From Serendipita indica DSM 11827 (Eukaryota > Basidiomycota > Agaricomycetes > Sebacinales > Serendipitaceae), in assembly GCA_910890315.1 (NCBI GenBank), contig CAJVGD010000012.1, forward strand, positions 62,001 to 126,000: a stretch of 64,000 nucleotides of DNA, read 5' to 3'. A program made the translations under genes and the position numbers. Shown piece after piece: positions 1,666-43,661 of the stretch. Positions within the stretch are counted from its first letter, which is position 1. Each line of letters opens with the position of its first letter. A model generated the notes under the pieces. That model saw only the letters and a program-made list of their open reading frames with translations, was not told the DNA's origin and searched no databases.

Positions 1666-3767
1666 ATGGCGATGGCCGTACATCCTCAGACTGATGTTAA
1701 TGAGCTCCTTACGCCTCAGCAGAAGATGCAAGTCGCGAGTATGGAGCGTGCAGAGCCCGAGACAGATCCTGCTGTCCTCCGGACCGCGGCACAAGTAAGA
1801 GCTTGAACGCTCGTGAGCTCAGAAACGCGCTAATGTACTTGATCGTGTAATAGCTCTCGTGGTTAGCAAGTCAACATCACCAGTCGGAGTACCATCAGCT
1901 CAAGTTTGGACCAAAGGGTAAGCTTTACACATCTTACGTGACGGCGCGGTTGCTGACAAGCACAAAGGCGCTCCTGCGACATATATTCCCCTGTCGATTC
2001 AACTTCCTCATCACTGTCGGGAGCTACGCGTATACCAGGCTGCCATCTCACAAAACCAGGCGTGGTGGCTCGCATCCCACTCGCGCGCGCATTTGGACGC
2101 GAAACGCAACGTAGTTCAGATATCTAATGCTACAGAGGGCTCACAAGTACAAGATGCTGCCATGAGTGAGCTTGAGCAAGAGCTTTCGCTCGCCATCTCC
2201 TCGCCGCTCCCCCCTTTGCCCCAACATCTGCAGCTGCTCCCAGTCGACGGAACGAACCCTGCCAAAACATCGGAAACACATCCCATCAAGTACGTACATA
2301 ACTCGACGATGCGGCTATTGTGACTGATGAACCCATATCTAGCCTTTCGCCAATGGTCCCATTCGAGCTTGTACGCCAGCTCGCTAGATTTCTTCAGGAC
2401 CCCACGTATCAGCGACAGCCGACTTATCTCGACCTGCCTTACAGCATTACTTTGGATGCGCTCACTGCTCCCGGTCAGGGAACGCCAGCGCCGCCACCGC
2501 CGGAGAGGATGCCAGAGAATCCTCCGTCTGCCATTCCTGCAACGTTCATCCAAACGGAGCTCACAAAAGACATCCCAACACCCCCGCCGGCGCCGCATTC
2601 ATCACCAAAGATGATAGCGTCAGACCCAGCTTCGATACCGCTTCCGCCCTCGCCAGAACTTGAGAGAGGCCGTGGTATCCCAAACGAAGCGGCATCATAC
2701 TTCACCCATCCGGTCTCTTCCAATATTGCAAGTGAACTGCAAGAAGCGACCAATACGAACATCGAATTTCCCACTCAACCTTTTAGACTTCAACCTCGTC
2801 TCAACATTCATAGACCGCAGCATTCGAATGGCGGAGTTCCTTTGCCAGCTGCTTTGCCACGACCTCCTCTTGGGAACCTCTTCCTTTCATCTTGCCCCGG
2901 CAAGAAAGGTGAGCACAAAATTACTACGCACACAATTGTGCTAATATTTTTAGTACGCCTACAAGGACCCGTAAAGGGCAGAGGAACGATATGCCGTGAT
3001 CTCGGCAGGGATTTACAGCGAATCCGGGACTCAGGTGTAGGATGTATCATCTGGTAAGAATTGATTCCTCTGAGGAACGCTGGTTGACATGTTTAGCTGT
3101 TTGGATGATGGAGAGCTTCATTTCTTGGGCGCACCTTGGGAGGAATATTGTGCAGAGGCACATCAACTAGGCCTAGATGTGCTCCGGTTCGTGTATCCAA
3201 GTCTCTTTGATTCTCTCTAAAGGAAAATCTAGCATTCCGACTCCTGAAGGCTTTGCTCCTCTCGATCCCGCGGTCATCAATGCGCACTTGGACACTATCA
3301 TTACCAGATACACTCTCAGAGGCACTTCAGTGCTCGTGCATTGTCGAGGTGGTGTTGGCAGGGCTGGCCTCGTTGCGTGTTGTTGGATGCTCAAGCTCGG
3401 CCTCATTGGATGGATTCGACGGATTGGGCCAATCCCTTCTGGCAATGCACTGAACGCACTCATGCCCAGTTTCACAGAAGCTGGAGCCAACCCATCACCG
3501 TCACAGCCGCAGCCGCAGGATGCCCCTGTAAATCACCCTCCGACCAACGGCATCTCGCCGTACACCGACGCAAATCAGATATACAACGATGCATTGGAGC
3601 GGTTAGAAACAATCGACCTTGTCGAACGGGTCATTCGCGTTGTTCGACGAAGGCGCAGCGTCAAGGCAATTGAAACCTTTGAACAGGTACACTTCCTCGT
3701 CCAGTTCGTGGAATATCTTCGCGTAATCTCATCACGTCTCGAAAATGGAAGGGTCGCCCTATCTTAG
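1666..3767 (+). CDS. dual-specificity / protein tyrosine phosphatase with long disordered N-terminus
   Basis: The C-terminal third is a compact dual-specificity phosphatase fold. The general-acid region LHFLGAPWEEY precedes the active-site loop VHCRGGVGRAG, which matches the HCx5R signature with Cys as nucleophile and Arg binding phosphate. The loop arrangement resembles CDKN3-like or plant-type DSPs rather than classical PTPs. The first ~230 residues are Pro/Ser-rich and low-complexity. The gene needs about six introns: 1795-1853 is clear, and one at about 3187-3232 joins DVLR to IPTPEGFAPLDP in perfect frame. The ATG at 1666 is the first in frame and starts a plausible exon. Substrate is unknown. 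A second short intron structure inside the N-terminal region cannot be excluded. Confidence 0.85.
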
Positions 3768-3980
3768 TACTTAGAGATCATTTTGGCGTCACCGCAGTCT
3801 TGTACCTCGCATTGTCTATGTTAGTCGTGTATATACAATCACAACCTGTTCCCGGAATATTCGGTTTATATTCAGTCCAGAGTGGTGAAAGACGGCAAGC
3901 TAACTTGCTGCTCGCCACTCTCACCATTTTGTGACACCTTGTCTTGGATACCCTGAATCTCTTGTATAAACACCTTGAAA

Positions 3981-5388
3981 ATGTCGTCAAATCTTCCGAC
4001 AACAAATATGCCAATGTCGATCGCGCACTTTGAGACGGACCCTCGAATCCACTACAACACGGTATCGCAGAAATGGGAATTCGAGGACGATGATGGAAAT
4101 GAAATGGAGTGGGATGATGTAAAGAATGCATGGGTGCCACTGGTGAGCTCTCATAGAACGTGTCTAACGGGGACTGACGAGATTCAGGTTGACGAGGAGT
4201 TAGTGCGGCAACAGCAAGCGGTGTACAGTGTAGCGGGTGTTGATGAAAACGTGCGTGCCCCTTACTTTGATTGTATTGTTACTGAGGGCAAACGCGATAA
4301 GACCCCAGCGGCTCCCGTCCTCGCGCGAGAGAACAAGAAACGCAAAGCGGGACAATCGAACGGAGACATTACGACTAGTGCAGGTCCTGCGAAGAAAAAG
4401 GGCAAAAATGAAGGTTCTACGAATACAAAACCCGCCTCTAAGAATACAGCCGTCTTCGTCTCAAATCTACCACGAGATGCGACGGTGGACGAGATTGCGG
4501 AGCGGTTTGGAAAATTTGGTGTCATTATGGAGGATGATGCCGGCGAACCAAAGATCAAAATGTATGCGGATGACAAGGGAAACTTTAACGGCGAGGCCCT
4601 CGTCGTTTATTTCATGGAAGGATCTGTCAATCTGGCCGTCAATCTGTTGGATGAAGCGGAGCTCCGGTTGGGGGATCAGAGCACCATTATGCGTGTACAG
4701 CCGGGCGAGTTTGGACACAAGCAATCTGGGGGCGTTGAAGTCACCCGAAGGGTTGTTGACAAGAAGAAGGCAACATCGAGGATTGCAAAGCTAAAGAAGT
4801 GAGTGTATTCATCTAATTTTATATTGTTCCCAAACTCGTGCAGCAAAGTCGGGGACTGGGATTTCGATGATGGTTTTGGTCCAACCGAAGAGCCAGTCCA
4901 AAAGGAACAAATCATCGAATCGCGAGTCGTCGTCCTCAAACACATGTTTACTCTCGAAGAATTGAAAGAAGACCCGTCACTCTTACTGGACCTCAAGGAG
5001 GATGTACGTGAAGAGGCAGAGACGATAGGTGACGTTACCAACGTGGTCCTGTACGATGTGAGTGTCTCTCGTCCTGTTTCACTTTCCGAGTTTGAGACGT
5101 GTCCAGGAGGAACCCGAAGGCATCATGACCATCAAGTTCCGGGACCCGATCAGTGCCAAAGCTTGTATCATTGTGAGTGAGCCATTTAGTGCCTAACCTA
5201 TCGGCTGATCGTGCCAGAAAATGAACGGACGCTGGTTCTCCGGGCGACAAATCGAAGCATCCTTTTTCACAGGGCGACAGCGCTTCCGCAAGAGTGGACA
5301 CTCTGACGAGGCTGGAGACGACGCAAACGAAAAGGAACGACTTGCAGGATTTGAGAAATGGCTGATGGCCGAAGGAGAGACGGCATGA
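3981..5388 (+). CDS. CUS2: Tat-SF1/Cus2-like U2 snRNP splicing factor
   Basis: This protein resembles HIV Tat-specific factor 1 and yeast Cus2, which bind U2 snRNP protein SF3B1 and help U2 snRNA folding. The N-terminus has the acidic, aromatic KWEFEDDDGNEMEWDD segment typical of the family, followed by a Lys-rich linker. RRM1 begins AVFVSNLPRDATVDEI. A second RRM of UHM type carries SRVVVLKHMFTLEEL and ends in the NGRWFSGRQIEASFF block, the W/F loop that binds a ULM tryptophan. Four or five introns are needed, the first at about 4143-4187. The start at 3981 (ATGTCG) is the first real ATG of the frame. Its end faces the end of the UPF0643-like gene, so the two are convergent. Confidence 0.92.
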
Positions 5389-27365: not shown

Positions 27366-28928
27366 ATGTTGTCCATCCTTTTCACAGCTCTCTCCACCAG
27401 CGCCCTTCTCGTCTCTGGCGCACCCATCCTCGAGAAACGCATCGCACAGGTCATTGCACAAGCTACAGCAGACTGGGAACAAGCTTGTCTCAGAGCCGGT
27501 GGTGGCCAGGCCTGCAATCCCCTCTCCGTCTCGTCCATGGCCACTTTGCTCGCGGCCCCGCCTCCGTGTGCACAACAAGACGCCGCAGACTCGATGATCG
27601 ATCTCGCTCGTAAACTAGGAAACGATGCAGAGATGATTCGTCTCGCCCAGCTCTTCAGGCAGCAACCACGGAATGCACCAGACTCAGTCTCCTCTCTTTA
27701 CTGCCAGCAACCTCCGCGTAACAACGAACTTCAGGGTCTTTTCCAATGCCAATTCCAAGGTGTCAATGACAATGTCTTCACCGGTGGCGTAGCCCTCGGC
27801 GCCCCTGGCACTATCCCCCTGGGTCTCAGTTCACTCAGCCCGCCCGGGTCTTGCCCCGCTAATCCTGGTGGAAAGATTCCAGACGGTCAGCAGTTGAACA
27901 AGATTGTCAACAATCCTGGACGCGGAAACGGTGGCGGAAACAATGGCGCCGCTCAGCCTTCACAACCAGCTCCTCCCGCTCAGTCGAAGTGAGTCTTGTC
28001 CAGTCGAGTCTGTTGCACACTTCTCACGGCTTATTTCAGTGCTCCGGCTCCAGCTCCGGCACCGGCTACACCTGCACCTGCACCTGCGCCCGCCCCGGCT
28101 AACAACGGTGGCGGTTTCCAGGCTCAAAACGCTAGGGATGCACAGGCTCTAAAGTCCGTCTCTCCTTTTTTTGTACTACTCTCAATCTAACATCCCAACA
28201 GCCAACAATTCAAGGGACTCACAGCTGGCTCCGCATGCACCGTCGGCCAAGTCGCATGTCTCTCCAACGGCCAATTCGCACAATGCCCCAACGGCGCCTT
28301 TGTTGCGACTCCCTGTGCCGGTGGAACACAGTGCATCGCACTTCCACTTGTTAACAAGGCTGGCACGAGTGTAACATGCACGACGTTGGACGATGCTGCC
28401 CGTCGATTCGCTGCTGCGGGTGTCTCGGGAGGATTTGACGGTCAACAAGGATCTGGTAATGCCACGCAGAACCAGAATCAAAACCAGCAAGTTGCCCAGC
28501 CCGCACCTGCACCTGCACCCGCCCCAGCACCGGCACCAGCACCGGTACCAGCACCAGCTCCCGCTCCGGCTAATAACGCCAGTGGTTTCCAGGCCCAAAA
28601 CGCTCGTGACGCTCAGGGCTTGAAGTACGTATACCCATGCCACACATATTCACCCACGGTCTAACATTCCCACTCTAGCCAAAAGTTCAAGTCGATTAGC
28701 GTCGGCTCGCCATGCACCGTCGGTGAAAATGCGTGCACGTCTGATGGGCAATTTGCGCAATGTCCTAATGGGACGTTTGTCGCCACCCCTTGTGCGGGTG
28801 GCACGCAATGCCTTGCGCTCCCGCTCGTCAACAAGGCGGGTACGAGCGTAACCTGCACGACACTCGACGATGCGGCCAGGAGGTTTGCAGCTGCGGGTGT
28901 TACGGGTGGATTTGATGGGCAACAATAA
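27366..28928 (+). CDS. secreted protein with two CBM19-like modules
   Basis: The signal peptide MLSILFTALSTSALLVSGAP is followed by a Kex2-like site (LEKR). A ~190-residue N-terminal domain with paired cysteines contains WEQACLRAGGGQACNP and CQFQGVNDNVFTGGVALG; I do not recognise it. Two homologous C-terminal modules are separated by Ala-Pro dipeptide linkers. Each module reads ...GSxCTVGxxAC, GQFAQCPNG, ATPCAGGTQC and ALPLVNKAGTSVTC, with six cysteines spaced as in CBM19 chitin-binding modules, and ends in an ARRFAAAGV helix. Three introns each fall just before a module or linker, in a repeated position (after ARDAQ-[AG]-L), so the modules arose by exon duplication. Chitin or cell-wall binding is inferred from the module. 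Confidence 0.88.
28498..28569 (+). repeat. Ala-Pro dipeptide repeat linker
   Basis: About 12 consecutive Ala-Pro (occasionally Val-Pro) codon pairs, mostly GCACCT/GCACCG-type hexamers, link the two CBM19-like modules. A shorter copy lies at about 28040-28100 before the first module. It is likely a rigid spacer and a site of length polymorphism. Confidence 0.8.
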
Positions 28929-31152: not shown

Positions 31153-33705
31153 TCATTGGCGTCCATCGAATCCGCCAGAAACACCAGCATCTGCCATACG
31201 ACGATTTGCATCCTCAAGCGTTGAGCAAGTTACGCTCGTTCCCGGTTTGAAGACGAGTGGCAGCGCAAAACATTTGGTTCCTCCAGAGCAAGGTGTAGCG
31301 ATAAAAGTTCCAAATGGACATTGGGCAAATTGTCCATCAGACGTGCAGGCATTCTCGCCTATAGTACATGGCGAGCCAACCGTAATCGACTTGAAGCGTT
31401 CGCTAGAATAAAGTGTGAGATCGGGATAACGTATTAGAGGATGCACGTACTTGAGGCCTTGGGCATCTCGAGCGTTCTGCGCTTGGAAGCCACCAGCATT
31501 GTTTTCGCCTGAAACAGCGGAAGTAGAGGCTCTACAGAAGGGTAAGCGCACAAACTACAGTCCTCGTGAAACACGTACGTAGAAGAGGGCCCCTGTGGGT
31601 TCTGTAAAGTACTACCGGTGTTGGATGCAACAGAACCAGATCCTTGTTGACCATCGAATCCACCAGAAGCGCCGGCATCGGCCATACGGCGGTTTGCATC
31701 CTCGAGCGTCGAGCACGCTATGCTTGTTCCCGGCTTAAGAACAAGTGGAAGCGCAAGACATTGCGTCCCTGCGGCGCAAGGAGTAGCGATGAACGTCCCG
31801 AATGGACACTGGGCAAATTGTCCGTCAGAGGTGCATGCATTCTCGCCTACAGTGCATGGCGAGCCGACTGTGATAGATTTGAACTTTTGACTGCAGTATG
31901 TGAGAATGGAAGTAAAGCAGATCAGTCAACGCACTTGAGCCCTTGGGCATCCCTAGCGTTCTGAGTCTGGAATGCAGCAGCTCCCGTGTTGACCTCAGGC
32001 GTCCTAAGGAATTGTAAGAGATGATTTTTTGATTTGCCGAGACTCACACTTCAGCGATACCTGCTTTACGAGAGGGCTGGGTCTTGCTCTGTCCATTGTT
32101 GTGAACCTGTTGGTATATTCATTAGGCACAATAGACGAGCTTTCGATAGCACGAACTGAAGCAGTACTGATAGATGCAAGTCAGAAACTAGTGAATCGAG
32201 TAGGATGGCTGGACAATACTAACCTGGCACCACCCAGATTGTTATTCGATGAAGACGAGAACTGGTCGTTCAAAGACCCAAAATTGCCAGTCGAAGAGAA
32301 CTGAGTGTTCGGTGACCCGAACTGTCCATTTGAGAATTGTCCATTAGATGGGAACGGCTCCTGACTGCTCGAGAAATGGCTCCCGCCGACTTGCTGGCCC
32401 TCAAACTGCATGTTATGGCCCAAGCTCGAGCTAGCAGCGTATCAGAACGACTTCCAGATGTCTTCGCATACTTACTGCAGCTGCGGCGTCATCATAGCCC
32501 CGTACGCCGCCATATTCTGCTGCACGTGCATCAAAGCCGACTGCAGAGACTGCATCGCTGCTCCAAGCAATTGTCCCACGTAGCTCATCGACGCGTCCAC
32601 CGAGTACATCATATGCGGCAGGTAGTACATCGCATAGTTTTGCATGTAGCTCGGGAACGGGCTAAAGCTTGGTGGCATGCCGAATTCGTGATCACGGCCA
32701 AATGTTCCACATCCAGATGCGCCGCACTGTGTATTCGTTGCCGAAGTTGGAGTGCATCCAGTTGGACCACATGTCTCGGGTTGTCCAGTGGAACCAAATT
32801 GACCAGTAGATCCAGTCGATCCCAGTTGGCCAGTTGATCCAGGCTGTTCCGTCGATCCAAATTGTCCTGTAGATCCAAGCTGCCCAGTTAATCCTAATTG
32901 TCCAGTCGACCCAAATTGTCCATTTGCACCAAACTCTGTTCCAAACCCAGTCGTAGGTGGCAGACCGTTGGCAAACGGATTGCTACCAAATTGGCCAGTC
33001 TGTTCGAACCCGGTAGGAGGAACACCAAATGGTGGGACCGCCCCAATAGGCGGTTGACCAAACGGTGGTTGACCAAATGGTGGAACTGCACCGACAGGTG
33101 GCTGACCGAACGGTGTAAATTCAGTCGTTGGTGGCTGACCGAAGGGGTTGAATCCCGTGGTCGGCTGGCCAAATGGTGAGAATGGAGGTGTCTGACCGGT
33201 CCTGCGTATCGTTAGCTGTTGCCAAGTACATCAACTTTGTCGACTCACAGAGGATTGATCGTGCCAGTAGAGGGAATCGCTGGTGCAGCTGGAACAGTGC
33301 CAACTGCCGTGGACGATGTCGCCGGCGGAGTGGTTGTCGTGTTGGTACCAGTTGCAGGTGTGGTACTTCCTCCAACGGGGCCTGGGGGAAGCTCCTGGCT
33401 AACTGGGATCGTCGATGTTGATGTGACGGGAACGACACCAACATCTGGTGTGCTGGGTGGCGGGGGTGTGCTCTCTCCGTCGCCGTCATCATCTTGTCGT
33501 TTCCAGTTGCGCATGATCTCGGGTGTACGTCTCACTCGTCGCATCCGGCAGGGTGCAACTGAGCACAACTGAGCTATCCAAGTGTCAATAAGTGCTAATT
33601 TGGCGGAAAATATCCCATACCAGCACCCCCTACGGTTATTGGTGCGGCTTCTGCGACCAACGTGGATGCGCCCAGCAGCGCGAATAGGTACGGTTTGAAG
33701 ATCAT
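31153..33705 (-). CDS. secreted repeat protein with Met/Tyr-rich core and two CBM19-like modules (paralogue A)
   Basis: The signal peptide MIFKPYLFALLGASTLVAEA is followed by a short Cys-containing propeptide-like segment with Arg-Arg and Lys-Arg sites (RMRRVRRTPEIMRNWKRQ). A Thr/Pro-rich stretch comes next, then PFGQPP-type repeats and a run of SGSTGQFGSTGQ-like repeats. A Cys-rich knot (TCGPTGC...CGASGCGTFGRDHEFG) leads into a ~50-residue core (FPSYMQNYAMYYLPHMMYS, then VDASMSYVGQLLGAAMQS) that I cannot assign to any family. A Ser/Asn/Gln-rich linker ends in two CBM19-like modules (GENACTSDGQFAQCPFGTF). Nine or so short introns are needed. Its paralogue lies at 41350-43661 in the opposite orientation. 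It is probably a wall-associated or matrix protein; no enzyme motif is visible. Confidence 0.85.
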
Positions 33706-33955
33706 TCTTAGTGAAATTTAAAAATAAAAGTAAAGAGTGGGTGATCCTGCCAGAGGAGAGAAATAAAGGCAAAGCTCCTGGCCTCGAAAAGAAGAGATAA
33801 AAAGGCGGAGGGGAAGAAAGGGATCCAAAGATGATCTATGAGAAGGCAGCGATGCGCCATGATATATATGAGATTTCGTTGGCGACATGAGCGGTGATGG
33901 GAACTAGTCGTAGGCTGTGGCCGCATACAGCCTTTTGTCCATAGCATGAGCGCCT
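32466..33955 (-). repeat. inverted duplicate block, left arm
   Basis: From the promoter (about 33955) to the end of the Met/Tyr-rich core exon (about 32466) this block matches 41107-42751 on the plus strand. The match includes intergenic DNA: both contain GCGCTCATGCTATGGACAA, GAGGCCAGGAGCTT and TCTCTCCTCTGGCAGGATCA in the same order before the start codon. Low-complexity repeats inside have changed in number between the copies. Confidence 0.85.
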
Positions 33956-34077
33956 GCAGAGAGGAAACATTCACTTTATCATTAACGATGTCATAAACAC
34001 CGGAGTTGGTGAATGTTGGTCGTGGCAAGGTCCAAAGTTGACGAGTCTCTTGTCGTCTTCGAACACTACGAGTCGCC
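33956..34077. promoter_or_regulatory. shared upstream region of paralogue A and VMA8
   Basis: The gap between the divergent starts of paralogue A (33705) and VMA8 (34078) is 372 bases. The part nearest paralogue A belongs to the inverted duplicate block; this remaining ~120 bases next to VMA8 does not clearly match the other arm and probably carries the VMA8 promoter. Confidence 0.45.
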
Positions 34078-35018
34078 ATGTCTGGGCCACGAGAAGCAAT
34101 ATTTCCAACAAGAATGGCGCTTACAAACACCAAGCTACGGCTCAAGGGTGCACAGACGGGCCACTCGCTCCTGGCCAAGAAGCGAGACGCGCTCATGACC
34201 CGCTTTCGAGCGATTTTGCGCAAAGTTGACGAGGTATCGTTATACTATAATAAATTCCTCAGCAGTGTCTGACCAAGTCCTCGAATCTCCTCTGGATCAG
34301 GCAAAGCGCAAGATGGGACGTGTGATGCAATTGGCGTCTTTTTCACTCGCCGAAGTCACATATGCTACCGGAGACATTGCATATCTAGTTCAAGAGCAGG
34401 CGAAGAATGCCTCTTTCCGCGTCAAGGCAGCTCAGGAGAACGTCTCCGGTGTAGTCTTGCCCACTTTCGAGGTGGATAGGGTGGCAGGCAGCGGTAAACA
34501 AATCCATACGTTCTTTAAACTCTACTGACATATCTAGATTTTAATCTCACCGGCCTTGGTCGTGGTGGACAGCAGGTGATCAAGTCGAAGGAAGTCTATG
34601 CCAAAGCCCTTGAAACACTGGTCGAACTTGCCTCACTACAGACAGCATTCATGATCCTGGACGAAGTCATTCGAGCTACTAACCGACGTGTTAACGCTAT
34701 CGAGCACGTTGTCATCCCTCGACTAGAAAACACTATCAAGTTTATCATCTCAGAATTGGATGAGATGGATCGTGAAGAATTCTATCGGTAGGTTTGCTCA
34801 AAGCTGCATGTCCAGCTTGCTTACGGTGATTTAGATTGAAGAAAGTCCAGGGCAAGAAGAAGCGAGATGCCGAGGCAGCTGAAGCCCTGAAGAAGAAACT
34901 CGCTATTGAAGCTGGCGAAGCAGCTGAAGAATCAGCCAAGCCCGTTTCGGTGCTTGTCGACGAAGAGGTCGGGCCAGGCGACTTGCTCGCGACAAAGGAC
35001 GAGGATGTCATCTTCTAA
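34078..35018 (+). CDS. VMA8: V-type proton ATPase subunit D
   Basis: Subunit D is the central rotor shaft of the V1 sector that couples ATP hydrolysis to proton pumping in vacuoles and endosomes. Spliced translation gives about 259 residues, close to yeast Vma8. The start [20 protein letters not shown], the [19 protein letters not shown] helix and the [19 protein letters not shown] helix are diagnostic. Three introns (about 34234-34300, 34493-34535 and 34788-34833) keep frame. The tail is Ala/Glu/Lys-rich and acidic. The stop is only 20 bases from the stop of the convergent VOC gene, so the 3' UTRs must overlap. Confidence 0.96.
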
Positions 35019-35038
35019 CGTAGATTATATTGCAATAA

Positions 35039-35502
35039 TCACGAGCTCGCTGTACAGAGCATGAGATGCTATACATCGTCCGTTTGGAGTACTCACACTT
35101 GGGTCCCATGAAATCCCACCGATTTCCCCACTTATCCTTGAAGACAACGACATCCCCATATGGTTCTTTCCTTGGTTCCTCCATGAAAACAACTCCTTTG
35201 CTCTTCATTTTCTCATAATCCTGCCAGAAGTTGTCTGAATGCAGGAAAAGCCAGACCCGGCCTCCGGCTTGATTACCCAGCGCGCTCTTTTGTACATCAT
35301 TGGATGGTACAGCAAGTACAAGTCCACATCCGGTTCCAGTATCGCTGTTTGGAGGATGAACGACCACCCAGCGCTTGCCACCACCCATCGCGACATCAGA
35401 TGTGAGTGTAAAGCCGAGCGAATTGACAAAGTAATCTATTCCCTCGTCGTAGTCTGGCACCAGGAATGATACAGACGCGATTTTTTGATTCGAGCTTGCC
35501 AT
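35039..35502 (-). CDS. VOC (glyoxalase/bleomycin-resistance fold) protein
   Basis: This small protein of about 140 residues has the vicinal-oxygen-chelate pattern: IASVSFLVPDYDEGIDYFVN, then LGFTLTSDVAMGGGKRWVVV, GRVWLFLHSDNFWQDYEKM and GDVVVFKDKWGNRWDFMGP. Two beta-alpha-beta-beta-beta modules are visible. In most members these bind a divalent metal and act on glyoxal adducts, extradiol substrates or antibiotics. Here the metal ligands are not all clear, so the reaction cannot be stated. One intron near the 3' end (about 35048-35098) gives the ending GPKSSS; reading through gives a longer tail. Its start is 37 bases from the tafazzin start on the other strand. Confidence 0.88.
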
Positions 35503-35539
35503 GGTGGAGTGCGAAGTAAGCGAAGTAAGCGGTTCTTGA

Positions 35540-36649
35540 ATGCCGCCAATCCCGTTGCCGAATCGAGTCGTGTCGTCGCTCACTGTTGGTCTTGTCGGAA
35601 CGGCTAGCAAGGTTGCTTGGCTTGATTTATACGCTTTTAGACGCGTTTGACACGTTTCAAGCTCTTTCTCAGTTTGGCATGCACCACAAAGGTGTCCGGT
35701 CTGGAGCATCTGTATGAAGCATGGAAGGAAGAGCACAGACAAGGAAAGGGTATCATAACTGGTAAGTGTACGACGTGGCAAGATTCCGTTATTCATCCCC
35801 TACAAGTCGCCAATCACATCTCAGTGTGGGTACACCGAAATCCGATCTATATTGCTTTTCAATACTCTGAATAGGATGGATGAACCACTAATGTGGGGTA
35901 TACTCCCCCTCCGCTCCTTTTTCCGCGACAGAACATCGAGGTGGACTCTTGGTGCACAGGATATCATGTACACCAACAAGTAAGTAAAGCACAAAGTTTT
36001 CACCTCTCTGATGACTGCCTCCTAGATTACTTTCTTCTTTCTTCAATAATGGAAAATGCGTCGAAACCGTGAGAGGCGCTGGCATCTACCAAAGTGCCAT
36101 TGACTTCGCGATACAGCGACTGGATACGGGGGACTGGGTAAGAGATGCAGATGATTACTCATCACCTGAAATTTTGGACTAGGTGCACCTCTTCCCTCAA
36201 GGCTTTGTGCGACAGGAAACGTTAGGCCCTCCTATCAAGAGACTGAAGTGGGGAGTGTGAGCACGGTTCCTGTCCACTGAATTATTCCTGATGCAGTAAT
36301 AGGGGACGAATGCTCGCAGAGTGCAAGCATACGCCGACAGTCATTCCCATATGGATCAATGGTCAGGCTTCCGATATCCTACGTATCTTCGCTTACTCTA
36401 TTCCTAGGATTTGAACAGGTCATGCCAGAAAATAGAGGATTCCCCAAGTTTCTCCCTCGCCCGGGCGCGAATATATCCATTTCCATTGGTGACCCGACGA
36501 ATCTTACGATGCAACTACACGAGCAAAGAAAAAAGTTGTGGACGGGTGACGAGTACTCGAAGAACATTCACTCGTTTCACTCAGAAACGACGGCCATCAT
36601 TGAAAGGGCGTTGGATGAGCTGGGACATAAAGCAGTTTCCTCTACATAA
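35540..36649 (+). CDS. TAZ1: tafazzin, cardiolipin-remodelling acyltransferase
   Basis: Tafazzin moves acyl chains between phospholipids to mature cardiolipin in mitochondrial membranes. Splicing of about seven short introns gives MPPIPLPNRVVSSLTVGLVG at the N-terminus, then VANHISVMDEPLMWGILPLR, where the HX4D catalytic motif is assembled from two exons. The chain then continues to TLGAQDIMYTNKLLSSFFN, GKCVETVRGAGIYQ and WVHLFPQGFVRQ (glycerolipid-binding motif). RLKWGVGRMLAE and VIPIWINGFEQVMPENR follow. The length, about 270 residues, is normal. The ATG at 35540 is chosen because its exon joins LFLSLACTTKVSGLEHL in phase. It shares a very short intergenic region with the VOC gene. Confidence 0.93.
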
Positions 36650-36728
36650 CTAAAACCTAGACTTATGAATATTCTAAATACATCGCCTTTACCACTCATC
36701 GGCAGCGTGTGGCTTCCAAAGTTTGCTC

Positions 36729-38679
36729 ATGGCCTTGCGACGGGCGAGCTTTGTACCCAAGGTGCTCTTCAGAAGACGGAACATAACACGTGTAGTTCTT
36801 GCAATACTCTCTTTTCTCGTCTTGAGAGCCCTCTTCAGCTCGTCTCCAAAGGACCATCCAGAGATTCGGACGCAGCACATCTTTGAGCGAACATCGAAAA
36901 CGCTCGATGTACAGAAATACGACTTTCTACAAGTCAGAATGGGTGGAGCTCTGCAAAAGGATATCCTGGATGAACTAATTTCGGACGGTTTGTGCGTTAT
37001 TCCGTCCAGCACGGGTTACTGATAAGAGCATACCGTAGGTGTGGACGACTATTGGAATAGATTTCAATCCAAGTTGTATGTAGAGTGCATTTGGTCGTTG
37101 TAAATTACTGACGGTTCACAAGCATTACTTCAAAAGATACATCGCACGCTGATACCCAAATTGTGCGGAGCTCTATAGAAGATCTCCTTGCGATGAATGG
37201 ATGGGTTACCGCATCCTGTGCGACACTCACGCGACCATTCAGTCAGAATCGCAGAGAAGAAGCCTGGGACGTCCTCGCTGCGCAGAATCGCCTCTATTAT
37301 ATTGCAATCATCATCCATTCTGCCGACCATTTCCTCGTCGATCAGCTCGCCGTGATAATTCAAATGGCACGAAGGATTGGCCCACAATCCATCTTTGTCT
37401 CGATGCTCGACTACGACTCTGACGATGCCACACCAACACTTTTGGATCTCTGCGAAGCTGTCTTGACTCTGCTCGCTGTTCCTTTCCGCATTCGTCACGT
37501 ACCGCGGATGACAGAGGATCGAAAGAACTCTTACTACCCACAAGAGGAGGCTTATACGCGAAATCTCGCGTTGGAGCCTCTTTGGGAACTTCGAGAGCGT
37601 AGGGGAATAAATTTCCATCGCGTTATCTGGCTCAAGGGGTTTACTTGTCCATACGACATTTTGGAGACGATCAAAGTGAGCGAGTTGAACTCGGCTGCAA
37701 TGGTCTGTGGGATGGATTGGGCTGAATTCAACGGTGCCTTTATATTTTCCGACCGGTATGGACGGCTGTTGCATTTCTAACTTGTCCACTCATTGCTGAC
37801 AGATGGCGCGCGCGAGACATGGACGGAGACGTGTTTCGCAGAGCAAGGTCATCTGCACCCGCAGAGAGTGGACCTCCGAGACACGCCGTGTCCGCCACCC
37901 GATATGGATCCCATTTACCCTTTCAAGTCTTTTGCTGCGAGTCCGGTACCCACATCGTGGATCCCGCACAGTCGTATTACAAAGGGATAAAGTACCGTCA
38001 TGGAACGCACTTTTATAACAGTACCCGAGAGGACCTCGTCATCGAATGGGACCGAACACAGCCGTGCCAGGATAGTGCACAAGCGTGGTTCTGCCGAGAC
38101 TTGTGGGTCGACGCCGCGAGGGATGTGAAGAACGCAGAACAGACTCAAGAGAAGGATTGGGTATCTCAGAGGAATGCCGTCCCGATGACCAGCAATAGTA
38201 ATACTGCAGCGGCGACGCCATCGGACTTGCGAAAAGAGAACGTTCGCGAGAAGGACAAACGTGAAATAGTGGCGGAAGCTGCAGGCCCACTAAACGATGA
38301 AGTCAAGGCCGGATCCAATGCTGATGCGATGCCGGAGAACATTGTAGACGAGGAACTCACGCCTGAAGAAGATGAGGTGCCTCCCGTACTCAACAAGGTG
38401 TACAAGCCGGCTCGAATCATGATGAATCCACGATGCGTGACGACATATGCAGGGGTCAGTCATGCCAAACTTGCGATGGATTTGTTTGGCGAGGGAGACC
38501 AGGACGAGGACGACATCTCCATTCTCTCGCAGGGTGGAAAGTATATTCTAGATCGCTGGGAGAGTGCACCAGTAAGCTTTGCTTGCCAGGAACAACGCCA
38601 GACTGGTGGGCGAAAGGCGACCAAGTCGCAGCGACGGCAAAGTTTCTCAATCTACAACGAGCTGAATCGAGCCTCGTGA
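36729..38679 (+). CDS. alpha-1,3-mannosyltransferase of the CAP59/CMT1 family (GT69)
   Basis: This is a type II membrane protein of about 600 residues. A short basic N-terminus precedes one span (VVLAILSFLVLRALF), and a luminal catalytic domain follows. Recognisable family blocks are YYIAIIIHSADHFLVDQL, IFVSMLDYDSDDATPTLLD, RGINFHRVIWLKGFTCPYDI, AAMVCGMDWAEFNGAFIFSD and the end MMNPRCVTTYAGVSHAKLAMD to FACQEQRQTGGRKATKSQRR. In Cryptococcus, Cap59 and Cmt1 act in capsule polysaccharide synthesis; in other basidiomycetes the substrate is unclear. An acidic, Lys/Glu-rich insert at about residues 430-500 is longer than I expect. About three introns are needed, the last at about 37757-37801. A second reading frame at 38433-38849 was considered for the C-terminus and rejected. 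Confidence 0.9.
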
Positions 38680-39146
38680 TGAATCCTTTCTATAGAGCAT
38701 TTCTTGCAGTATGGTATGCACAGCTAATTGCGGATTGTATACGGGCCGTGCCCGTGACGCGTCTACGTGACGTGGCGCGCGTCGGATTCGCACCAGATAT
38801 TATTTATGATCATTTATACCATCTAAGAGGCGACAGTGACTCTGTTTAAACGCGCCAACGGGCGTGCCTTTGAGCCGAGAGGAGTGGCAAATTCCAAGAC
38901 TGGGGCTGAATGGCCGGTCACGAATCAGGCGCCATTGTTTCCCAGCGACATATAAGAACCAATCCATCAGCATTTCCGGGGTTTCTGGCGCCACCAGCCT
39001 CAGGCCCCTTAGGTTGTTCTCATACCTCAATTTTCTTCCTCTCTCCGTCTCCCCTTTCGGATCGTCTACGTACATCGGTCAGCGGCTGGCCATCTGCAAC
39101 GCATCTCTTTCGTCTCTTCTGCGATACCATACGCAGCGCCCACGCC
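38680..39146. other. intergenic region, no gene seen
   Basis: This holds the mannosyltransferase 3' UTR and the next promoter. A pyrimidine-rich tract at about 39025-39060 precedes the next start codon. I see no coding evidence. Confidence 0.45.
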
Positions 39147-40260
39147 ATGGCAGACGGTCGACATGCGTTGCAATGGACGGGCTACGGGTCATTGGAGTCC
39201 GTTCTCGACTTTAGAGACTTGGTATGTGTCCTATCTGTTCTTTCTATCAGCTAATGTCTTTATTTTCTGATAATTATCTGCCGGTCGTCGTCTATAGGCG
39301 CCTCGCACGACGTCGCCTTGTCCCTCTTTCGTCCAAACTCCCCAATCGATCCCGAAGACCCCACCCGGGTGGCAAAGTCCTTATTGTGTCTCGTCCCCGT
39401 CAGAACCGTTGTCCCCATTGGTACGTCCCTCTCACGTCGAAGAGACCGTTGCCAGCTCCGAACTGACATTCTTTCCTAGACGCCCACGACATCATTTACG
39501 TTATATTCTCCCATTGCATTTCATCCTTCACAACTAGCATCATGCCCTTCTCCGGCTTCCCCTCGTTCCATATGCTCATCGCCTCTAGTTCGCATTATGA
39601 CTCCCCCTATGCCTCTGTCACCACCACATGTAACCAGTAACTCCGTTGCGCCTCTTCCTGGTGCGCATTCTCACCGTCCAGGACCGGTCGTGCCTCAACG
39701 AGCGTACAAAGCGACCGTTCCGCTGACTGGCGAGCCGATGCAAATTCAATTCAACTCTGCTGATGGTATATGTGGAATTCCAATGCGGCTGCTGAAAGAT
39801 GCCAGTGCAATGGACCTCCCTATGGAAAACGGGCGTTCAGTCCCCTTTCCCGCGTCGGTAGCTTCTACTATTACACTGAGGATCTGGGTAGGTATCTTAT
39901 AATTGCAATTATCCCATACTTATCTCTTTTAGTGGCCGGGCTACGTCCAATACTCGCGTCGAATGACGATGCGCAAAGCCACGGGATTGCTCATGCGTTG
40001 CGAACTGGCCATGGCTGTTTCAGAAGTGTACAAGCAATTCATCGAGGTGCGTCCCTATCGCTGGCGCTCCACCCGAAGCGCATATTGACCGCTACGCCCC
40101 CCCGAAATAGGAGGCCCGTGAGGATGCAAGAGACTGTGGGCAAGCAAAATGGCGTGTTGGGAGAGGTCGCATCACTGTCGATGACCTTGTTCTGTTGCGC
40201 ATGTTCCAAGTATCACAGGGGAGTTGGCAGGCGGACGTTCGACTGGAAAAAGAACAATGA
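39147..40260 (+). CDS. conserved basidiomycete-type protein, unknown function
   Basis: I recognise the pattern but not the function. The N-terminus (MADGRHALQWTGYGSL) and the next two exons are Pro/Ser/Thr-rich and disordered. The conserved part begins at KATVPLTGEPMQIQFNSADG and GIPMRLLKDASAMDLPMENG, then a TLRIWWPGYVQYSRRMTMRK block formed across an intron at about 39891-39932. A helix with AVSEVYKQFIEEARED follows a second intron (about 40047-40110). The end, WRVGRGRITVDDLVLLRMFQ to SQGSWQADVRLEKEQ, is shared by many unnamed Agaricomycete proteins carrying a W-P-G-Y core. The early exon borders are less certain than the last three. It is probably cytosolic or nuclear. Confidence 0.72.
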
Positions 40261-41349
40261 ACCGGCCTACTTACCCGTCCACTCGCTCATATTTTCATCA
40301 CGACGAGAAGGAAATGAATCAAGATCTAAAAATTATTAACGAGCATCGCGCCAACCTACGATGTCCATTATCGAAATCCCCGACCGACTTGACTCCGTTC
40401 ACGGACTCTACCTGACTCGGATGATCCTACGAACTCGCTTGACTGTGACCAAACCCAACTCGACCATTCAATGCATGTCTATACGATACCACGACTCAGC
40501 GAGGCGCGATTGCCGTTACCCAACCAATAATCTCATGTCCATTCCTCTCTGCCTATCCGCAATGCCTCTGCCTCGAGAATGGAGATGGAGAAGAAGATAT
40601 GTCCATTCAAGACAGTCCACGATGGACACGGCAGCAGCTAGGGCATCTTCATTGATCGCACCCGCAACTAATGGCCTCGACTTGTCTTCTTCATCCCTCG
40701 CCTTTATTCTCAGCGAAAATACTTATATCCTTGATCTTCGTTCGCTCCGGCTTGCTCAAGAGCAGCTATAGACAATGAGGCATTCCTTACCTCGGCGTCA
40801 GAGTGCTCTTCGGTCGTCGCTTGTATGTAGATCCTTTTAGCCATCCTTACCCCCAATCTCGTTGATTATTCCAATCAGCCGCCCTCGTACCATTTTTCCC
40901 ACGGGAATATATGCATTTCCGTGTCGCATATCCAGGCCAATAAGTTTACCCCTAAGAACTTTTGAATAATTGTAAAGAGTCATGAATACTGCATCGTGGA
41001 GATGGTACGCTGCCCAATCTTGGACGGCGACCTTGTCAACTCTGAGAATGCTCTAAAGTCTACAACATTAGTCAAAAGGATGAAATGAAACATTTCTTCA
41101 ACCTTGGCGCTCATGCTATGGACAAGGCTGTAAACGGTTCACAGCCCGCGACGAGTTCTCATCACCGCCCGCCATTTTCTCAGTCGTCAACGAGATGTCA
41201 TATATATCGGGGCGCATCGCTGGTCTCATAGATTGTCTTTTGGACCCACCCGCTTCTGCCTTTTTTCCCTTCTTTTCGAGGCCAGGAGCTTTTCTTTTCT
41301 TTCTCTCCTCTGGCAGGATCAACTACTCTTTACTTTTATTTTACCAAGA
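40261..41349. other. intergenic region with one doubtful ORF; promoter of paralogue B
   Basis: The first 500 bases hold a 136-codon plus-strand frame (40361-40771) with no family resemblance and no good splice partner; I do not call it a gene. The last 240 bases (41107-41349) match the promoter of the inverted paralogue at 33706-33955. Confidence 0.5.
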
Positions 41350-42751
41350 ATGATCTTCACACCCTACCTACTCGCGTTGCTGAGCGCGTCCACGTTGGCC
41401 GTAGAGGCCGCTCCGATCACCGTAGGCGGAGCTGGTACGTCCCATTAACCTCTGAAGTGGGCCTTACTTACGCTTTAATAGCTCAATTATGCTCAGTTGC
41501 ACCCTGCCGAATGCGACGAGTGAGACGCACGCCTGAGATTATGCGCAACTGGAAGCGACAAGAAGAAGGAGACGACGATGGCGAGGGAGATGGAGAGAGT
41601 GCACCTCCTCCATCTGAAGATGGATCTGGCGCCCCGCTGACTTCGACTCCGCCCGCTAACGCACCTGCTGTCGTCGTAGTCCCGGTCACATCAACCACGA
41701 CGATTCCAGTCAGTCAGGAGCTTCCACCGGGTCCTGTTGGAGGTAGTACGACCACGACACCTGAAACTGGTACGAACACAACGACAACACCGCCCGCGAC
41801 GTCCTCGACGGCAGTTGGCACCATTCCGGCAACACCAGCGACCCCCTCTACTGGCACACTACCTGGAACTGTACCTGGAGCGGCTGTTCCTCCGTGAGTA
41901 GGCACCGTCAATATACTTGGCTACAGCTAACGATATGTAGGACCGGCCAGACACCTCCGTTCTCACCATTTGGCCAGCCGACGACGGGATTCAATCCGTT
42001 TGTTCAGCCACCGACCACGGGCTTCACACCATTTGGACAGCCACCGGTCGGTGCGGTTCCACCATTTGGCCAACCACCGTTTGGCACTGTACCGCCGTTT
42101 GGCGCTGTGCCACCGTTCGGTCAACCGCCTATTGGATCGGTGCCACCATTTGGCGTCCCTCCAACTGGGTTCGAACAGACTGGCCAATTTGGTAACAATC
42201 CGTTTGCCAACGGTCTGCCACCTACGACTGGGTTTGGAACAGAGTTTGGTGCAAATGGACAATTTGGGTCAACTGGACAATTAGGATCAGCTGGACAGTT
42301 TGGATCGACGGAACAGCCTGGATCAACTGGACAGTTTGGATCTGCTGGACAATTTGGATCGACGGAGCAGCCTGGATCAACTGGCCAATTCGGTTCGACT
42401 GGCCAATCTGGATCCACCGGACAATTTGGTTCCACTGGACAACCCGAGACATGTGGTCCGACTGGATGCACTCCTACTTCGGCAACGAACACGCAGTGTG
42501 GCGCATCTGGATGTGGAACATTTGGCCGTGATCACGAATTCGGCGTGCCACCCAACTTTAGTCCGTTCCCGAGCTACATGCAAAACTATGCGATGTACTA
42601 CCTGCCGCATATGATGTACTCGGTGGACGCGTCGATGAGCTACGTGGGACAACTGCTTGGAGCAGCGATGCAGTCTCTGCAGTCGGCTTTGATGCACGTG
42701 CAGCAGAATATGGCGGCGTACGGGATCATGATGACGCCACACCTGAAGTGA
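41107..42751 (+). repeat. inverted duplicate block, right arm
   Basis: This is the partner of 32466-33955 on the minus strand. Similarity runs from the promoter through the signal peptide, propeptide, Thr/Pro region, PFGQPP repeats, STGQFG repeats, Cys knot and Met/Tyr-rich core, and weakens after the exon end at about 42749. The arms are 7.2 kb apart and enclose VMA8, the VOC gene, tafazzin, the mannosyltransferase and the W-P-G-Y gene. Confidence 0.85.
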
Positions 42752-43661
42752 GTGTGCTGAAAATGTTCAAGACTCCCTGCTGATACGCTGAATAGCTCGA
42801 CCTTTGGCCATAACAATATGCAATTTGGACACAATATGCAGTTTGAGAATCAACAATCCGGAGGACATCAATTCTCACATAACCAGGAGCAGTTTTCATC
42901 TCATGGTCAATCCTCCAACGGTCAATTTGAATCCTCAAACAATCACTTTTCGTCGTCAAATGGCCACTCTGGATCCTTCAACCACAATAATAACAACGTT
43001 GGATCCAATAACCAGTTCTCTTCGTCGAATAACAACGTCGGATCGTCCAATAATCAGTTTTCATCGTCGAACAACAACTTTGGCTCGTCTGGTTCATCAC
43101 AGTTTAGCTCTTCTGCCTCGTTGTGAGTCGCCTTGCCATCGTTTGACTCTAACTGACGTGATGCTCAGCCCGCAGTCGACTCCTCTCGGTGGCGCCAGGT
43201 GAGTATCCGTCTTTCATTTCTATCTCTTGCTGAGTTGTCGGTAGTGGCTAACTGGCTTTCCTCATTAGCACCACATCGGTTCGTCGGCTTTTGATCCTTG
43301 GAATTTGCTCATGGCTAACTCTTGTTCACAGTCGTCCTCGTTCCCTCAGGAGACGCAGTCGTTTAACAATCACGGGTCACAGTCGTTTAACAGTCACGAA
43401 TCACAATCGTTCAACCAGCAGCAGCCACAATCCTTTGACCAGACCAACCAACAGCCCCAATGCAGCCATGGCGAAAAGACATGTATGGGACAGAGCTTTG
43501 CCGTTTGCGTGCACGGACAATGGAAAGTTGAGCAATGCTCACACGGCACCCAATGCTATGCTCTCCCGTACAGTGGTCAAGCCACGACATTTGCGTGCGC
43601 GACGCCGCAGTACTTTGGAAAATGGATGCAAATGGCCAAGCAGGCTGAAAGGCATGCATAG
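41350..43661 (+). CDS. secreted repeat protein with Met/Tyr-rich core and one CBM19-like module (paralogue B)
   Basis: The paralogue of 31153-33705. Signal peptide MIFTPYLLALLSASTLAVEA, then the same RMRRVRRTPEIMRNWKRQ segment, an acidic Asp/Gly/Glu insert absent from paralogue A, Thr/Pro stretch, PFGQPP repeats and about 15 imperfect SAGQFGSTEQPG-type repeats. The Cys knot and the core (YMQNYAMYYLPHMMYSVDAS) are almost unchanged. After that it diverges: a Ser/Asn/Gln/His-rich linker (SSNNQFSSSNNNVG repeats), then one CBM19-like module, CSHGEKTCMGQSFAVCVHG, QCSHGTQCYALPYSGQATTF, and ending in KWMQMAKQAERHA. Six or so introns are needed, all in phase. It is likely secreted and wall-associated; the exact role is unknown. 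Confidence 0.85.

Follow-up and report, generated by a model that had tools for sequence, protein, structure and literature searches.

A head-to-head pair of repeat-rich secreted-type proteins in Serendipita indica shares a core probably homogenised by gene conversion

We analysed a window of 64,000 nucleotides from the genome of Serendipita indica DSM 11827 (all positions below refer to this window) and found in it a pair of spliced, paralogous genes, A and B, that lie head to head and encode repeat-rich proteins of the secreted type. Gene A occupies 33705-31153 on the minus strand and gene B 41350-43661 on the plus strand. We built the splice models by hand from sequence alone, using the GT-AG rule and the agreement between the two copies. 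The models fit the limits given in a preliminary description of the locus, which had proposed a divergent paralogue pair. Gene A has 10 exons (33705-33621, 33573-33249, 33201-32476, 32430-32224, 32166-32157, 32106-32048, 32003-31935, 31890-31579, 31531-31451, and 31402-31153) and encodes 707 amino acids in a frame that is open throughout. Gene B has 7 exons (41350-41434, 41482-41893, 41941-42747, 42796-43122, 43169-43198, 43269-43278, and 43332-43661) and encodes 666 amino acids. Predicted introns are 44-57 nucleotides long in gene A and 46-70 in gene B. Both models require a 10-nucleotide micro-exon (32166-32157, minus, in A; 43269-43278, plus, in B), followed in each case by a GTTCGT donor, because the frame into the C-terminal part is otherwise lost.

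The two predicted proteins share one layout. A signal peptide, recognised by eye and probably cleaved after residue 20 in A, is followed by a 34-residue prodomain ending in KR (residues 21-54, APITVGG..LCSVAPC..RRVRR..NWKR; 33497..33645, minus, in A and 41410..41558, plus, in B). The prodomain is split by intron 1 in both genes and leads into an acidic and P/T-rich stretch. Next come PPFGQ and TGQFGS repeats (32781..33200, minus, in A; 41942..42442, plus, in B), a four-cysteine motif of the form C-x4-C-x9-C-x4-C (32709..32780, minus; 42443..42514, plus), and a Met/Tyr/Gln-rich core of 51 residues, SYMQNY..AAYG (32499..32651, minus; 42572..42724, plus). An N/S/Q-rich stretch and Cys-rich C-terminal modules complete the proteins, which end in GGFDGRQ (A) and AERHA (B). 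Searching Pfam with the whole proteins revealed no enzyme domain in either. A collagen-like reading was rejected, as the PF01391 scores of 23.2 bits (A) and 24.8 bits (B) are under the 27.2-bit cut-off. Elsewhere in the same genome, the repeats match a site at G000:C2:2446761 (45% identity, E 1.8e-5); this match covers low-complexity repeats.

The core barely differs between the two genes. All 51 residues and 152 of the 153 bases are identical, as expected from the earlier report of an almost unchanged segment of about 50 residues, and 97 of 101 residues agree over the longer stretch from PETC to MMTPxL. The preliminary description had contrasted this segment with fast-changing flanks and had read its conservation as the mark of a functional unit. 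The contrast holds on one side only: the sequence downstream of the core does diverge, but the prodomain, P/T region, and repeats on the N-terminal side are also highly alike in A and B, with differences that are largely repeat indels. The functional argument was lost when we compared substitution rates in the core with those in other regions, a check that the same description had proposed. Over the 51 codons, 1 of 30 silent sites and 0 of 123 replacement sites are changed (Fisher P 0.2; for the wider core, P 0.059). Since the identity extends to the silent sites, it cannot serve as a sign of constraint on the protein. Identity between two paralogues in one genome is no evidence of function if the silent sites are identical too, which is a common trap.

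Outside the core, silent sites have diverged. The proportion of silent sites changed (pS) is 0.46-0.48 across the three longest upstream regions, namely the prodomain and the P/T region (both 0.48) and the PPFGQ repeats (0.46). It is 0.25 for the signal peptide, 0.68 for the short acidic linker, 0.15 for the TGQFG repeats, and 0.26 for the four-cysteine motif. Beyond the core, exon 4 gives 0.90, on an uncertain alignment. We also counted silent differences over the 377 codons whose amino acid is shared by A and B, excluding Met and Trp. By this count, 69 of 167 codons differ across residues 1-195 of protein A, 19 of 161 across residues 196-371, and 31 of 49 across residues 372-449. The middle block corresponds to a homogenised tract at 32499..33011 (minus) in gene A and 42167..42724 (plus) in gene B. 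Within this tract, in the repeats that precede the core, A residues 201-234 form the longest stretch free of silent changes (33 codons), a length reached by only 2 of 20,000 shuffles. Judged by their flanks, A and B are old duplicates. As the silent sites of the core are almost unchanged while the flanks have diverged to this extent, DNA appears to have been copied between the genes recently, and recent ectopic gene conversion between the inverted copies is probably the simplest cause of the near-identical core. Our literature search found nothing on gene conversion in Serendipita indica.

Codon bias was rejected as the sole cause of the identity. Among the core's silent codons, 42 of 43 are identical, compared to 27.1 expected from background usage and the divergence of the flanks (P 4e-8), and the result holds with the core's own codon usage (P 1.3e-5). 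Alternatively, the silent sites might be fixed by a constraint on the DNA or RNA, such as an antisense gene, RNA structure, or splicing signals. Antisense frames are open across the core of both genes, at 32334-32837 (plus) and 42377-42766 (minus). However, these frames would be alike anyway because the DNA is nearly identical, and the near-identical tract reaches into the repeats. RNA structure was rejected as the cause, as the B core stretch (42518-42722) folds no better than shuffled sequences (z -0.04). We therefore consider a constraint of this kind very improbable.

Several points weigh against conversion as we have described it. Both P values for codon identity assume that codons are independent, and the background is small (1,450 codons). 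The exon-4 value depends on the uncertain alignment, and silent divergence upstream of the core is uneven, with the signal peptide and the acidic linker at its extremes. The homogenised tract is itself patchy: 10 of 49 codons carry silent differences at A residues 251-300, beside cleaner blocks at residues 201-250 (2 of 46) and 301-371 (3 of 61). A single event is therefore insufficient, and the tract is patchy or results from several events. Finally, third-position GC content is raised in the core (0.74) relative to the upstream regions (0.46-0.48), the adjoining repeats (0.31-0.34), and the sequence just after the core in A (0.61). Unusual codon use thus accounts for part of the identity. 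The rise could reflect GC-biased conversion or a different codon habit, or the segment may have a separate origin. The blocks upstream of the two genes (41100..41349, plus, for B; 33706-33955, minus, for A) are 72-92% identical in 60-column windows, which is comparable to the coding flanks and suggests either shared regulation or conversion there too.

Selection can be demonstrated in other parts of the proteins. The prodomain is identical in protein sequence, with 13 of 27 silent sites and 0 of 75 replacement sites changed (Fisher P 2e-9). Constraint is also clear in the P/T region (28 silent versus 9 replacement changes) and in the PPFGQ repeats (23.5 versus 3.5), while the TGQFG repeats are less constrained (9 versus 5, P 0.002). 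Thus, the comparison of A with B points to selection in the prodomain and the PPFGQ repeats and not in the core, the one place where this pair cannot show constraint.

The prodomain also bears on how the proteins may be processed. Dibasic sites lie at residues 40, 43, and 53, within the prodomain of both proteins, and single sites occur at residues 464, 561, and 692 in the tail of A. Being repetitive, of the secreted type, and equipped with a KR site, A and B might be KEX2-processed repeat proteins (KEPs), from which short peptides are set free. In the available text of one study, KEPs are defined by at least three repeated motifs separated by KEX2 sites (PMC6339444). The site map contradicts this reading, since the dibasic sites are confined to the prodomain and the A tail and neither KR nor RR occurs between the repeats of A or B. 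We regard a KEP identity as extremely improbable.

What the core might do was approached through searches and structure prediction. Within the 24.7-Mb, 55-contig genome, a search with the core protein sequence returned two places at E <= 0.001, which are genes A and B. No family was found in Pfam (searched with both whole proteins and a 101-residue piece containing the core) or in NCBIfam and PHROGs (searched with the 101-residue piece of B), and the best PDB match of this piece was not significant (E 0.44). On these results we rejected the core as a known domain, and the earlier statement that it belongs to no named family holds for these libraries. Pattern searches gave 8 matches in viral contigs and 590 in genome contigs, none of them confirmed as relatives; they say little about fungi, because the collections searched hold viruses, bacteria, and archaea. 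The core is thus an orphan segment with respect to Pfam, NCBIfam, PHROGs, PDB, and its own genome, and our claim of novelty is limited to these.

Cystine knots contain at least six cysteines. The motif beside the core, previously called a Cys knot, carries four, so that identity was rejected; it lies within residues 1-40 of the 101-residue piece, a part modelled with a predicted local distance difference test score (pLDDT) under 50. Given two near-identical rows for this piece, AlphaFold predicted one long helix at residues 43-96, with low overall confidence and a pLDDT of 77 in the best ten-residue block. The structure prediction suggested in the preliminary description therefore produced a helix, but not a firm one. 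The amphipathic character proposed there for the core found similarly divided support. Compared with shuffled sequences of the same composition, the hydrophobic moment is raised for the whole core (P 0.0012) and its second part (P 0.0056), but not for the first 17 residues alone (P 0.32), which weighs against one uniform amphipathic helix. The core is composed largely of Met, Tyr, Gln, Ala, and Ser; it contains a single acidic residue and lacks both Lys and Arg. Together, these data weakly support a model of the core as an amphipathic helix.

One explanation of these properties is strong protein-level selection on the core as a self-assembling helical domain, with conversion maintained because the two copies must stay compatible to co-assemble. 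The absence of any amino acid change in 51 residues, the amphipathicity of the core as a whole, the long predicted helix, and the nearly uncharged composition would all agree with such a domain. However, the silent sites are equally unchanged, so that constraint is undetectable, and the structure model is of low confidence. We consider this explanation unlikely.

The C-terminal modules of A and B resemble CBM19, which is best known on chitinases. CBM_19 appears among the binding domains of GH18 proteins in the accessible part of one study (PMC8042737). Using Pfam PF03427 with its curated cut-off of 20.1 bits, we found that protein A scores 34.3 bits as a whole, in two stretches (module 1, 31641..31889; module 2, 31156..31401; both minus). 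Gene B contains a single divergent module (43443..43658, plus) that stays below the cut-off. The one or two CBM19-like modules described earlier correspond to two clear modules in A and this divergent one in B. The B module keeps all six cysteines, in register with those of the other modules at this locus, and hhalign aligns it to them with E 1e-7 and probability 94. Splicing could switch this module off, as retention of the intron at 43279-43331 shifts the frame into another that is open to 43731.

The other modules belong to A and to a third gene, C, which the preliminary description had overlooked. Gene C (27366-28928, plus; exons 27366-27988, 28040-28153, 28202-28624, and 28679-28928) lies 2.2 kb from A and encodes 469 amino acids in an open spliced frame. 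Its product has AP-rich linkers, a pair of CBM19 modules like those of A, and a signal peptide that we recognised by eye. The modules of A and C score 26.3-29.4 bits per exon match. The N-terminal part of C has no Pfam match, and the only further hit that it gives in the genome is weak and not significant (E 0.24). We found no paper that names gene A, B, or C, although a mention by PIIN number alone would have been missed by our search. Across the genome, the CBM19 search hit six places, of which five exceed the cut-off (two in A, two in C, and one on contig C13) and the sixth is the B module. The hit on contig C13 (G000:C13:972500-978500, 2696-3991, plus) is a secreted-looking frame in which one CBM19-type module is followed by a long Ser/Thr-rich region.

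At the protein level, the modules of A are 78-82% identical to the second module of C and 70-71% identical to the first, whereas the B module shares 28-31% identity with each of the four A and C modules. The likeness extends to the DNA, where inverted matches between A and C cover the modules (254 nucleotides, 74%, and 200 nucleotides, 77%) and a segment before the first module (44 nucleotides, 82%). By eye, the motif FQxQNARDAQxL precedes each of the four modules. As the modules of A are C-like and the rest of the gene is B-like, gene A is a mosaic of a B-like body and a C-like tail. The sequence itself shows the mosaic, and the exchange may have gone in either direction. Since A and C carry the same set of modules, the family probably evolves by exchange of exon blocks. 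A PDB profile match to resistin-like beta over the A and C modules (31156-31889, minus; 28203-28925, plus; E 0.006) was set aside because the fold search gave no support, and is probably a coincidence of cysteine spacing.

We lean modestly towards a reading in which A and B are secreted, non-enzymatic, prodomain-processed proteins that decorate the fungal wall or outer matrix and carry a core homogenised by conversion. The secreted type, prodomain, low-complexity repeats, CBM19 modules, and lack of a detected enzyme domain all fit the wall or matrix protein that had been suggested. According to this reading, the signal peptide would be removed first, and a Kex2-type protease would then cut after the conserved prodomain (RRVRR...WKR). 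Long arms rich in FG/GQ/NSQ would remain extended, while the C-terminal CBM19-type modules would anchor the proteins to chitin or another, related polymer of the wall. Molecules could associate through the Met/Tyr/Gln core, folded as an uncharged amphipathic helix, and the four cysteines may cross-link the associated molecules. The near-identity of the core would come from recent gene conversion of the inverted copies and not from measurable protein constraint.

Some results count against this picture. The B module reaches 15.2-16.6 bits with the C-terminal frame alone, and a Pfam search with the whole B protein does not report CBM_19 at E up to 5. The CBM model has a mean pLDDT of 73.8, with no PDB fold match below E 1.3 in Foldseek. 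The AlphaFold model of the core is poor (mean pLDDT 53.7; predicted template modelling score 0.23), and the start of the core departs from an amphipathic pattern, as noted above.

The wall or matrix reading has parallels in described systems. The Ustilago maydis protein Rsp3 has a signal peptide, is cut at its N terminus between residues 60 and 61, is predicted to be disordered, and coats hyphae, according to the available text (PMC5923269). Judged by this description, A and B resemble Rsp3 in their signal peptide, prodomain, and long repeats of the disordered type. In Rsp3, the N-terminal segment is removed near an RR site; in A and B, the prodomain is conserved and under selection, and its cleavage is predicted. 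Unlike A and B, Rsp3 is not credited with a CBM19 module or a Met/Tyr core in the accessible portion of that paper. Rsp3 is known to bind host proteins. QID74 of Trichoderma is likewise described as repetitive and wall-associated, but consists of 13 tandem 59-residue repeats that bind a chitinase (PMC13170347, in part). With regard to the CBM19 proteins, A and C carry two modules each and B one divergent module, and in contrast to chitinases they show no enzyme domain in Pfam searches.

Further parallels come from the same fungus. Many lectin-like secreted proteins, some of them induced in roots, have been reported from P. indica (PMC3192844, available sections), and S. indica lectins with WSC or LysM domains and FGB1 have been located in matrix, wall, and filtrate (PMC9252488, available sections). 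These proteins are secreted and bind polymers, as we propose for A and B, and many have no other domains; they differ in their binding domains, and neither long FG/GQ repeats nor a core of this kind is described for them in those sections. These reports, together with tandem CBM19 modules that lack an enzyme domain, raise an alternative to a structural role in the wall, in which A and B would act in the apoplast as lectin-like effectors and hide or capture chitin at the surface of the root. However, A and B are large and repeat-rich compared to the small lectins, and CBM19 is not mentioned in the accessible text of either paper. We view an effector role as possible but, on balance, improbable.

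At least two other genes lie between A and B. One is a glyoxalase-type frame (35008-35799, minus; PF00903, E 2.5e-14) and the other a CAP59/CMT1-type mannosyltransferase frame (37112-37780, plus; PF11735, E 4.5e-27). The ends of A and B lack the C-terminal sequence RSIDELD, which marks the DELD family, a group of 29 proteins called P. indica-specific in the part of the source available (PMC3192844). A degenerate RSIDELD-stop pattern occurs at 18 sites in the genome, compared to 0 for the pattern read backwards, and 10 of the 18 are on one contig (G000:C29:1858-128224).

A and B thus represent a genuine protein family that is in part unassigned, although its setting is of a known kind. A more specific proposal, which we hold to be doubtful, is that the core is a lineage-specific helix for self-assembly in the matrix, kept interchangeable by repeated conversion, so that A and B could co-assemble and yet diverge in their arms and polymer-binding ends. 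If the matrix reading is true, the A/B/C cluster would provide natural domain swaps, with the same arms joined to different polymer-binding ends and the converse. Such swaps would offer a route to test how the outer wall layer is built in a root-living fungus.

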